From contig CANQBA010000031.1 in NCBI GenBank assembly GCA_947589545.1, positions 1 to 43,192 on the forward strand: a stretch of 43,192 nucleotides of DNA. Reading direction: 5' to 3'. The translations under genes were made by a program, and so were the position numbers. This DNA comes from an uncultured Oscillospiraceae bacterium (lineage in GTDB: Bacteria; Bacillota; Clostridia; Oscillospirales; Oscillospiraceae). A model generated the notes under the pieces. The model ran no database searches. It saw only the letters and a program-made list of their open reading frames with translations, and was not told the DNA's origin. Below are positions 7,404 through 38,515 of the stretch, piece after piece; positions within the stretch are counted from its first letter, which is position 1; the number at the start of each line of letters is the position of its first letter.

Positions 7404-7702
7404 AGCTTATCAAAAACTCAAATTCAATATTTTTCCCGGCGACATGTGCGTCGGGAAAAATCCCTTTTGTCACGCAAGTGTGTTCATGGGGATCCATCCG
7501 GGCTGTCGCCCGGATGGGAGAGGACGTCCGACGCCTGCGCCTGAGCCCGAATACTTGGAGGGCGAGGTTAAGCGGCGTCGGTTAGGACGAGGGTGCGCGC
7601 GGCGTGACGGCAGGGTAATTTTCTCTGAATTTCGCAAAATTCAGAGAAAATTGCCCGCACGTTCCCTTTGTCGGAAAAAGCCCGTCAGGGCTTTTTCCGA
7701 CA
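7404..7702 (+). repeat. Composite multi-hairpin repeat, copy A (with embedded RNA-like module)
   Basis: Fills the gap between the GH31 gene and the convergent gene at 7709. In order it contains an AGCTTATCAAAAA start, a TTTTTCCCG/CGGGAAAAA hairpin (about 7429-7460), the module at 7469-7608, a near-perfect hairpin of about 20 bp around AATTTTCTCTGAATTT (about 7612-7655), and the GTCGGAAAAAGCCC/GGGCTTTTTCCGAC hairpin (7670-7701). Copies B (17080-17283) and C (16400-16508, inverted) share the outer parts with high identity. No ORF is credible. The outer hairpins can terminate transcription from both sides. Confidence 0.85.
7469..7608 (+). ncRNA. Candidate structured RNA module (copy 1)
   Basis: A domain bounded by GTCACGC/GCGTGAC. 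Inside are P1 (CCATCCGGGC/GCCCGGATGG, 4-nt loop), then GGACG, then P2 (CCGACGCC/GGCGTCGG) enclosing GCGCCTGAG, P3 (GCCC/GGGC) with loop GAATACTTGGA, and GAGGTTAAGC. The copy at 38358-38488 keeps the loop and junction sequences, while all three helices change on both strands so that pairing is retained. That pattern supports a selected fold. The strand is set from agreement with the orientation of copy 2. I do not recognise the class. Confidence 0.6.
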
Positions 7703-7708
7703 GTTACA

Positions 7709-16300: not shown

Positions 16301-16398
16301 TCTCCGAACAGGTACGAAACTTTATCCGCTGGAACGGCGGCATTCCCACCGCCTCCCAGGCCCTTCTCTCCGACACCCTGCGGGCCATGACGGAATGA
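13315..16398 (+). CDS. BlaR1/MecR1-like M56 metalloprotease sensor with a long non-penicillin-binding C-terminal domain
   Basis: A 1,027-residue membrane protein. Membrane segments appear at about 8-28, 38-56, 145-166 and 341-361. The cytoplasmic gluzincin loop carries the M56 zinc motif R-H-E-L-T-H (H241, E242, H245) and, further on, E-x-x-C-D-A-x-A. Residues about 73-135 form a Pro/Thr/Asp-rich low-complexity linker (repeated V-P-x-x-P-D and V-T-P-G units) between the second and third helices. The region after 361 (about 660 residues), which should be extracytoplasmic, lacks the S-x-x-K, S-x-N and K-T/S-G motifs of the OXA-like sensor in true BlaR1, so beta-lactam binding is unlikely. It is translationally coupled to the BlaI-like repressor. 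The signal is unknown. Confidence 0.85.
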   Translation: MMELILRVLKWSVLVGAATALVTALKPLLDRRFTPRWRYWLWLALAAALLLAPLPLDSLFPALPEPAVTVTAPEIRVPAPAVSRPARDIPATSDRPAVPDIPVTPDVPTMPDRPVTPGDPTVSGTPVTPGTTHTGAAERRTVALSTLLTAVWLLGAAAFALWYMAGTALLERRLRRWSVPAGGEIVSLCQTLSEELGLSKIPKTGVSRGLASPLVAGLWRPRLWLPDRAWEGRELELVLRHELTHIKRRDLGYKALLLAANALHWFDPLIWLMRREAGETVELLCDAQALRDADQDTRRAYCEALLANIRRIRGAALTTYFYSGKNSVKARFKNLLSGHKRRFGWAALAFCVLAVTVTACNLGVGASTAVAPEEFDGAYTASCFQDVFLRDENDRRIQDKAVLINSLDQLDKLRRDSGIEPLDEGYRVINGELVEQLDAYTRDYFRENVLVVLIREMGSGSFDLSVKGVALDGDALKVTLAAYNPTAPTQTMDLCQWCVLVECKRVEGVAAVQCDVETEDRRDDSTPDAVAGALTAAGNGFVARVAAALEEQVGARVQANFPQDYYQFAELAYNGALYRVYTWQYSLTVTDPVYNYDSLRFTLDSGETICLRRSAWYSYSEELPSAFAVRINENLSGEPEILDTLTAAGLDAHRRDWTGYLSELSGKTAPHEPTIADRAELIGRQLVWGEFGGVVKVKEAEEVSGFVLSREDLADVREALTGLHWGPSSVSSRSWRNDDMWILAESGDGRYAVRLGLAYGPVELTAEGSYALFELPEAEYTELWRRLFQAAQRATEDAVFSGVSADRSLSMDEAAAAIGEGIAAAIRSLPEWVAWKPLDARFTGASVFDAYRGEPENFCAGVSIALKLASDDPEDTGRSFWEAGSGLPEEPLGGDLAGYYAWEREICVCRDKAGQWVLTGINTGDSMVFVPGWTYASDGENSFERASVEDLLRFYTLSGGDFREYIVALLCRKTPRELENIDSALAALSPGELRELSEQVRNFIRWNGGIPTASQALLSDTLRAMTE

Positions 16399-16399
16399 C

Positions 16400-16508
16400 T
16401 GTCGGAAAAAGCCCGGACGGGCTTTTTCCGGCAAGGGGGAACGTGCGGGATTTTTCCCGACGCGCATGTCGCCGGGAAAAAGTTTGAATTTGAGTTTTTT
16501 GATAAGCT
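16400..16508 (-). repeat. Multi-hairpin repeat, copy C (short, inverted)
   Basis: In the opposite orientation to copies A and B. It carries the GTCGGAAAAAGCCC-type hairpin (16401-16432), GGAACGTGCGGG, the CCCGACGCGCATGTCGCCGGG hairpin arms (about 16449-16482) and the AACTC...TTATCAAAAA end. The central hairpins are absent. It begins 2 nt after the stop of the sensor gene and can terminate transcription from both sides. Confidence 0.8.
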
Positions 16509-16510
16509 GA

Positions 16511-16543
16511 CGCTGGCCGGCGAAATGCCGGCCAGCGTTTTTT
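16511..16543 (+). terminator. Terminator of the blaI-sensor operon
   Basis: A perfect 11-bp stem, CGCTGGCCGGC/GCCGGCCAGCG, is followed by TTTTTTA. It reaches the end of the convergent tspO gene. Confidence 0.8.
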
Positions 16544-17042: not shown

Positions 17043-17076
17043 ATTCCCGGTTTCCGGCAAATATGCGTACATAAAA
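17043..17076. repeat. 34-bp direct repeat, left copy
   Basis: Identical to 17289-17322. It contains AAATATGCGTACATAAA. The two copies bracket repeat B, 212 bp apart. Confidence 0.9.
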
Positions 17077-17079
17077 GGC

Positions 17080-17283
17080 AGCTTGTCAAAAAACTCAAAT
17101 TCAATATTTTTCCCGGCGACATGCGCGTCGGGAAAAATCCCTTTTGTTTTGCGGAGTGTGCGGCCCTGCGGGCCGTGCGCGGAGCAAAACGGCAGGGTAA
17201 TTTTCTCTGAATTTCGCAAAATTCAGAAAAAATTACCCGCACGTTCCCTTTTGTCGGAAAAGCCCGTCAGGGCTTTTTCGACA
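17080..17283 (+). repeat. Multi-hairpin repeat, copy B
   Basis: Same order as copy A, but the 140-nt module is replaced by one hairpin, GTTTTGC...GCAAAAC with inner GGCCC/GGGCC (about 17145-17188). The outer stem differs from copy A (GTCACGC/GCGTGAC) on both sides. The AATTTTCTCTGAATTT hairpin and the GTCGGAAAAGCCC hairpin (17252-17283) follow. No coding potential. Confidence 0.85.
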
Positions 17284-17288
17284 GTCTC

Positions 17289-17322
17289 ATTCCCGGTTTC
17301 CGGCAAATATGCGTACATAAAA
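17289..17322. repeat. 34-bp direct repeat, right copy
   Basis: Second identical copy of the 34-bp sequence at 17043-17076. It lies 41 bp before the small coat-like gene. Confidence 0.9.
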
Positions 17323-38129: not shown

Positions 38130-38157
38130 TCGACAGGGCGGGAAAAAATGCTATAAT
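38130..38157 (+). promoter_or_regulatory. Promoter directly before the inverted-repeat element
   Basis: TCGACA (38130-38135), 16-nt spacer, TATAAT (38152-38157). The inverted repeat starts 2 nt after the -10, so the transcript would begin within the first bases of the element. Confidence 0.7.
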
Positions 38158-38158
38158 A

Positions 38159-38515
38159 TAGCTGACGGGAGTCGAACCCACGTCGGTTTTCGCCGGCTGA
38201 TTTGCGCCAGTACTTTGTCAAAAGCCTTGACAATACACAAAGTATTCTCTGTGGCATTTTCCGCGTCCTGACGCAAATCAGCTCGCCGAAAACTGCGTAG
38301 CACTCCACGGGTCGCCATTTTCGAGGGATTTTCCGTGCGGAGGGCGAGGCAAAGCGACTCACGCAAAAACGGGGCCCCCATCGGGCCGTTGCCCGATGGG
38401 GAAAGGACGATGCGAGCCAGCGCCTGAGGGCGAATACTTGGAAGCCCGAGGTTAAGCGGCTCGCGTGAGGACGCGGGCCCGCGTGGAGCGACGTGGGTTC
38501 GACTCCCGTCAGCTA
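38159..38515 (+). ncRNA. Candidate structured RNA/mobile element closed by a perfect 27-bp inverted repeat
   Basis: A 357-bp non-coding element between a promoter and degV. It is closed by identical 27-bp inverted arms (38159-38185 and 38489-38515). Inside are arm 1 (38186-38293; about 20-bp stem with GCTGATTTGCG/CGCAAATCAGC and an inner GTCAA/TTGAC loop region), arm 2 (38294-38357; CTCC..ACGG/CCGT..GGAG) and the module at 38358-38488. It reads as a junction of arms closed by one long stem. The right arm contains TGGGTTCGACTCCC, which resembles a tmRNA/tRNA T-arm. It may be a mobile palindromic element, a degV leader, or an independent RNA. Confidence 0.65.
38358..38488 (+). ncRNA. Candidate structured RNA module (copy 2)
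   Basis: Counterpart of 7469-7608. P1 is CCCATCGGGC/GCCCGATGGG, P2 is TGCGAGCC/GGCTCGCG and P3 is GGGC/GCCC. GCGCCTGAG, GAATACTTGGA, GAGGTTAAGC and AGGACG are conserved. It ends directly against the right 27-bp arm. Confidence 0.6.

Follow-up and report, generated by a model that had tools for sequence, protein, structure and literature searches.

A folded module that occurs twice in a 43,192-nt stretch of DNA from an uncultured Oscillospiraceae bacterium (contig CANQBA010000031.1; the whole stretch is referred to here as the window) is probably the body of a small nonautonomous mobile element of about 107 to 114 bases, which has relatives over the Clostridia and has multiplied strongly within the genus of its host. 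Copies are dispersed to unrelated sites, filled sites have empty counterparts, elements nest within each other and form tandem arrays, insertion into a gene has occurred in frame, and the fold is preserved by compensated change. The original prediction had described an unrecognized structured RNA conserved between the two window copies; it did not foresee a dispersed element that has tens of copies in a genome and relatives throughout the class. Below, G-numbers denote genomes, with G000 being the genome of the window, and L-numbers denote loci.

Structure of the two window copies

Direct reading of the sequence shows that both predicted modules (7469 to 7608 and 38358 to 38488) exist and that their spacing of about 31 kb was given correctly. 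They have GCGCCTGAG, GAATACTTGGA, GAGGTTAAGC, and AGGACG in common, and their three helices change sequence while keeping their pairing, as had been claimed. P1 is formed by CCATCCGGGC/GCCCGGATGG in copy 1 and by CCCATCGGGC/GCCCGATGGG in copy 2; P2 is formed by CCGACGCC/GGCGTCGG and TGCGAGCC/GGCTCGCG, respectively, with one T.G end pair; and P3 is GCCC/GGGC in copy 1 and GGGC/GCCC in copy 2. The span 7469 to 7608 does contain the module but also takes in arms of the host hairpin (about 7469 to 7482 and 7595 to 7608), and the conserved unit is shorter (Table 1). The further claim that fixed loops and changing stems mark a selected fold stands for the stems, where compensated change keeps the fold, but the shared loops partly reflect common descent by recent copying, and the GAATACTTGGA loop differs in other species. 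Folding is above chance: with flanks included, fold energies lie below those of shuffled sequences, with a z-score of -3.7 for both copies, and when the stretch taken for copy 1 was somewhat longer the z-score was -2.8.

Table 1. Coordinates of the folded element, its helices, and its carriers in the window
Feature	Position	Strand	Remarks
Folded element, copy 1	7488..7594	+	Covariance-model match over 107 positions, E 2.9e-23, 127.2 bits
Copy 1, P1 hairpin	7493..7518	+	Arms 7493-7503 and 7508-7518
Copy 1, tandem G.A segment, 5' strand	7523..7527	+	Family consensus GA-S-GA; alignment positions 36-40
Copy 1, tandem G.A segment, 3' strand	7583..7587	+	Alignment positions 96-100
Copy 1, P2 arm with P3 inside	7528..7581	+	Strands 7528-7535 and 7574-7581
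Copy 1, P3	7545..7563	+	Strands 7545-7548 and 7560-7563; loop GAATACTTGGA 7549-7559
Folded element, copy 2	38371..38478	+	Covariance-model match, E 1.8e-21, 118.7 bits
Copy 2, P1 hairpin	38376..38401	+	Arms 38376-38386 and 38391-38401
Copy 2, P2 arm	38411..38465	+	Strands 38411-38418 and 38458-38465
Copy 2, P3	38428-38431 and 38444-38447	+	Inside P2 arm
Carrier A with copy 1 at its central hairpin tip	7404..7703 (ends approximate)	+	Multi-hairpin repeat
Carrier A with plain hairpin tip	17080..17285 (wider limits 17065-17300)	+	Full repeat
Carrier A, shortened repeat	16380-16520		
TATAAT, putative promoter box of the downstream gene	38152..38157	+	By eye; carrier B starts one base after
Carrier B holding copy 2	38159..38515	+	About 357 bases; inverted terminal arms 38159-38197/38477-38515

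Covariation across the family

Searching the source genome for an exact core pattern gave 11 occurrences, against 0 for its reversed form, and our first covariance model was built from 9 of these 11 copies, leaving out two that are chimeric. Among the nine, six make at least 25 of the 26 pairs in the first model; the other three lack 2, 3, and 9 pairs, the nine being partly due to a one-base shift in P1. The covariance-model search of relatives that the original prediction had proposed yielded further copies, and in 102 distinct sequences (of 115 matches) two-sided changes were found in 23 of 27 pairs, a number reached by 0 of 500 shuffles. In the same sequences, 98.1% of cells were paired (77.0% in shuffles), 465 cells carried a two-sided change (118 in shuffles), and five covariation measures each exceeded all 500 shuffles, although fitting the alignment to that first model makes it lean toward the model's structure, and related copies inflate the contrasts with shuffles. 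Shifting the partner by 1 to 3 columns reduced the pairing score from 0.50 to below 0.08. The fold is real and is preserved by compensated change.

Counts over 98 distinct full-length rows out of the 115 added four tandem G.A steps to the fold. Two of them flank pair 38:98, which was unpaired in the first model and, among 97 sequences, is G-C 58 times and C-G 35 times. On one side of this pair, 36.100 is G.A in 93/97 and 37.99 is A.G in 95/97; on the other, 39.97 is G.A or A.G in 92/98 and 40.96 is A.G in 81/98. The third step (56.78/57.77) is kept in 95/97 and 94/96 sequences and the fourth (62.72/63.71) in 84/86 and 74/85, while pair 55:79 is U.G in 85/96. Overall, G.A pairs are retained in 83 to 99% of sequences with letters present on both sides; by eye, the second step has become Watson-Crick pairs in L033, L048, and L252.

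Counted across the 11 pairs of P1, there are 46 cases of G.T and 2 of A.C, and the folding strand is therefore the strand as read here. This strand could be RNA or single-stranded DNA; its fold consists of the P1 hairpin, a short linker rich in A, and a long arm of P2 and P3 that contains the tandem G.A pairs. Among the family-wide pairs, none joins the two ends of the element to each other; closing helices, where present, come from flanking sequence.

Copy number and distribution

In the source genome, the covariance model matches 55 sites at E<=1 and 46 at E<=0.001, the latter including both window copies. Of 60 relatives searched with the first model, 24 of 34 genomes of the genus were positive, with up to 66 matches per genome, and 0 of 26 genomes of other genera were positive, although the refined model later found the element in two of these 26 (G034 and G048). 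The negative members of the genus look like a separate branch, because the EF-Ts of 7 of the 10 (those where it was found) is 76 to 81% identical to that of the window, compared to at least 85% in those positive members that yielded an EF-Ts.

The refined model was positive in 84 of 250 genomes and 49 of 106 genera at the family level (E<=0.001, own genus counted; 4 of the 84 genomes belong to the genus of the window) and in 16 of 291 genomes at the class level (E<=1e-4, own genome included). Both sets of counts are probably underestimates because strict filters left only 13 to 15 candidates to be scored per genome. Matches at these levels are our weakest identifications, with those across the class having E values of 1e-9 to 1e-5. 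DNA similar to one refined-model copy, used as the query, was present in 3 of 50,697 phage records and 1 of 72,556 plasmid records. Many copies are degenerate, which weighs against taking the family to be active at present. A search for an autonomous version with a long internal insert returned 13 of 124 distinct five-prime halves without the 3' tag pattern, and we rejected this candidate, since inspection by eye of these 13 showed tags of variant form, tandem copies, or 3' halves close to normal and in no case a long insert.

Carriers, hairpin tips, and nesting

Copies occupy several unrelated carriers. The covariance model finds no folded element in the full-length plain-tipped carrier A of the window (Table 1), and the tip is also plain in L084, L088, L092, and L099. 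It holds the element in the window copy at 7488 and in L017, L024, L028, L047, L049, and L069; in L116 the element is reversed (model match on the minus strand, E 9.6e-15). Carrier B has ends resembling a tRNA T-arm (GGGTTCGACTCCC) and is often flanked by TA, as judged by eye. Its relatives lie at L013, L014, L068, L081, L085, L092, L098, and L099, and also at L110, which is without the folded element. Terminator-like hairpins hold the element in their loop in L021, L026, L027, and L029 (by eye). When 111 copies were compared to all fetched DNA, about 5 to 12 nt replaced the element at many sites among the matches listed. Complementarity of the flanks, a sign of a hairpin tip, averaged -20.1 versus -16.6 kcal/mol for copies within the genus (p=4e-5); outside the genus it was not significant (p=0.06), nor was it by a cut of -12 kcal/mol (0.80 versus 0.79).

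The element also enters itself, the P3 loop being the site of nested elements. L042 and L065 each contain a whole element inside the P3 loop of an outer copy that in turn occupies a terminator-like hairpin, and nesting looks three deep in L018; at these three loci the outer elements were read by eye, as the model scores well only the inner ones. Nesting also occurs in L014 and L008/L032. Among tRNA genes of several species (L031, L236, L058, and L240), elements are antisense where oriented, and in L031, L236, and L240 they form tandem units with AT-rich spacers between the tRNA genes. The chimeric copies L010/L020, whose P2 halves are mismatched, show recombination, and recombination between repeats could explain part of the spread.

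Two further observations concern the flanks. Direct repeats of 19 nt (one mismatch) and 12 nt flank the element in L056 and L044, and by eye these copy the 3' part of a terminator-like hairpin. In L293 and L245, from two hosts, the element has opposite orientations within similar flanking sequence.

Empty and filled insertion sites

Comparison of orthologous sites shows the element present in some genomes and missing in others. The insert formed by copy 2 and carrier B has no counterpart at the same place in G011, G018, and G001, where the model has no match; this tsf-locus comparison covers 28 of 30 loci, two being without a readable end, and L130 was read in the wrong frame. Likewise, at L168 (G000 C13), the element and a carrier-B-like remnant alter the end of a sugar nucleotidyltransferase-like gene, and this insert is missing in G011, G018, and G001 (16 of 30 loci compared).

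At the end of aroF (27 of 30 loci compared), the element lies in reverse orientation in G000, G011, G018, and G005, the covariance model has no match in G001 and G004, and G033 has a degraded remnant (E 1.4e-5); the site in G009 looks like a loss. In the four filled genomes (L138, L139, L140, and L148), the last residue of AroF and its stop codon come from the reverse strand of the element, so that the C terminus reads VVAEQA in place of VVAEQK. The insert is bordered by an 11-nt repeat that is exact in G000, G011, and G005 and diverged in G018. This repeat is identical to the element's own P2 3' strand, and the target therefore resembled the element's 3' arm. Guide-directed insertion via the P2 strand was considered and rejected, as it fits aroF alone and not the phage or plasmid-gene sites.

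Two further inserts have empty counterparts in a phage and in a plasmid. In L277 and L286, the element lies between two phage genes, and phage PV036457, about 74% identical, has the empty site. In L257, a 114-nt, 38-codon in-frame insert is the element; L264 is similar, both belonging to one gene family. The gap is 0 nt at this position in plasmid OY725840, and L304 is empty. By eye, a hairpin ends 3 nt ahead of the L257 insert. The gene has a hit to a conjugative plasmid, and a Pfam scan of the product found no family. We take it to be a gene of conjugative elements.

Target duplication is inconsistent, with no clear case at the phage site or in the plasmid gene. A scan for repeats shared by the 3' arm and the 5' flank gave a score of 9 or more in 12 of 91 copies compared to 3.1% in a control, and several of these 12 are carrier repeats. 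A general target duplication is not established.

Proposed movement of the element

We propose that the fold would be kept since a mobilizing machinery recognizes the folded single strand, whether DNA or RNA, in trans. New copies may enter at exposed hairpin loops and, at aroF, at exposed sequence that resembles the 3' arm of the element. A stronger version of this proposal, which we advance tentatively and hold to be possible rather than probable, is that the family represents a new minimal class of mobile element whose content is the fold alone: a strand-specific, two-armed, tandem-G.A structure. Machinery that belongs to none of the Y1, IS110, and reverse-transcriptase families would recognize this structure as a folded single strand and place it in hairpin loops, those of the element among them.

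Alternatively, the module might be a passive passenger that owes its spread solely to recombination, gene conversion, and template switching between hairpin repeats, such that tips are swapped and stems are kept by quasi-palindrome correction during replication, with no selection on the fold. The chimeric copies L010/L020 and L008/L032, the recurrence of similar tips in different carriers, the reversed element of L116, and the coexistence of plain and filled carriers would all fit. However, template-switch correction would convert G.A mismatches to Watson-Crick pairs, and the family retains its G.A pairs at the high frequencies given above. In addition, inserts lie outside these carriers, between phage genes and inside a gene, though the latter has the hairpin just ahead of it. 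We consider a passive origin improbable.

Gene orientation and neighbors

The orientation of copies relative to neighboring genes bears on whether the module is a cis-acting RNA, such as a riboswitch, leader, or stability or terminator element, serving the adjacent genes. Of 103 genus copies, 12 without both flanks and 2 inside predicted genes were set aside, and genes were called with a home-made codon-usage finder. The remaining 89 comprise 26 sense, 27 antisense, 34 convergent, and 2 divergent copies. The near equality of sense and antisense copies and the 34 convergent ones speak against a regulator of neighboring genes and for an element tolerated at gene ends. A cis-acting role would agree with the strong conservation of the structure, the excess of convergent over divergent copies near gene ends, and the position of copy 2 between the putative promoter box and the downstream gene start. 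It is very unlikely given that sense and antisense orientations are equal, that the neighbors are unrelated, and that presence at a site varies between close relatives.

Among the neighbors listed, the genes are unrelated to each other. Ten hand-picked neighbor proteins that were scanned include phage capsid, tail, terminase, HNH, recombinase, and IS110 proteins, together with a chromosomal ParB and a sigma-like protein. No replication-strand bias was apparent from GC skew (47 versus 54), although this is a weak test.

Candidate mobilizing enzymes

We searched the genus genomes for three enzyme families and detected Y1_Tnp in 18, the IS110 Transposase_20 in 17, and the reverse transcriptase RVT_1 in 15 of 34. 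G005, a draft that is 97% complete and has 50 copies of the element, had no match to any of the three. Y1_Tnp was unmatched in the drafts G004, G005, G010, G014, G016, and G003 (49, 50, 23, 29, 54, and 6 copies, respectively), Transposase_20 in the drafts G005, G014, G017, and G030, and RVT_1 in the drafts G005, G010, G016, G019, and G024. Because the genomes are drafts, these absences are not proof.

These results weigh on the idea that the element is REP-like and moved by a Y1 (RAYT/IS200-type) transposase or is a relic of an IS110 element or group II intron. In the available part of one survey (PMC3733652), some REPs lie inside palindromes and the CGTC-tagged kind is without a dedicated transposase; the 3' end of our element, GACG, is the reverse complement of CGTC, and one copy (L261) lies near an IS110 gene. 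With each enzyme undetected in several element-rich drafts, and with a size and two-armed fold unlike REPs of 20 to 40 bp, we give this idea very little weight.

Comparison to known small repeats

The family is a real one of small folded mobile elements that works in the manner of Rickettsia palindromic elements (RPEs) and miniature inverted-repeat transposable elements (MITEs) but is set apart by its fold and by its tendency to enter the tips of hairpins. RPEs, as far as the available part of PMC2229807 describes them, are 105 to 146 bp long, have intergenic and in-frame intragenic copies, and yield a foldable transcript; RPE-4 and RPE-6 fall among the CGTC repeats without a dedicated transposase in the accessible part of PMC3733652. 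Our element falls within this size range (107 model positions; 114 nt in L257) and also inserts in frame in a protein gene, in the one family of L257 and L264. It differs, by description rather than by comparison to RPE unit sequences, in that RPEs are long stem-loops closed by terminal inverted repeats, whereas the element has two arms and unpaired ends, conserved tandem G.A steps, a position at hairpin tips, self-nesting, and clostridial hosts.

REPs (GTAG/CGTC-tagged) and their RAYTs share with the element, in what is available of PMC3733652, high copy number, location near gene 3' ends, and occurrence inside hairpins or palindromes, but REPs are single hairpins rather than a 107-nt two-armed fold, and several element-rich genomes are without a detected Y1 transposase. 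Bacterial MITEs (Correia/NEMIS, ERIC, and the Caulobacter CIR) are about 100 to 200 bp with foldable transcripts in the available part of PMC2229807, where CIR, like our element, has two arms and a linker. In contrast to MITEs, the element is without terminal inverted repeats of its own (carrier B does have inverted ends) or a fixed target duplication, and its fold is strand specific with conserved non-Watson-Crick pairs. IS110/bridge RNA systems and group II introns or retroelements differ in that the IS110 recombinase and the reverse transcriptase, respectively, are undetected in the drafts named above.

No account of the folded element was recognized among the PMC papers covered by our search. 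Fremin and Bhatt (2021; PMC8040213) reported 3161 candidate structured-RNA motifs from gut metagenomes, a list that could contain it; the available portion of the main text has no mention of mobile, copies, transpos-, Oscillospir-, or Faecalibacterium and uses "repeat" 6 times in other senses. Small folded repeats without a known transposase, such as RPEs and CGTC-REPs, are a standing puzzle, and the sharper fold, clear empty sites, self-nesting, and phage-adjacent copies of this family make the movement of such sequences testable. The element inserts into leaders and gene ends and, preserving the reading frame, into a protein gene, and in doing so reshapes the genes of gut bacteria.

Rfam search and rejected identities

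The description of the module as unrecognized was borne out by Rfam 15, in which no family reaches its gathering score over the module for either copy or for distant relatives. Weak hits (E up to 10) are mainly microRNA and small RNA hairpin models adjoining the module and tmRNA pieces on the T-arm-like ends of carrier B. Two resemblances that we had assumed were rejected: GGTTAAGC and GGGAGAGG, which we had likened to 5S rRNA, have no 5S match listed in the Rfam search, and GTTAAGC, presumed to be like integron attC, varies between copies (GTAAAGC, GCAAAGC, and CATCGC). The sole gathering-level Rfam match within the window is a malK-I RNA (RF03069; 87 to 265, minus strand, 127.5 bits), which is unrelated to the folded element.
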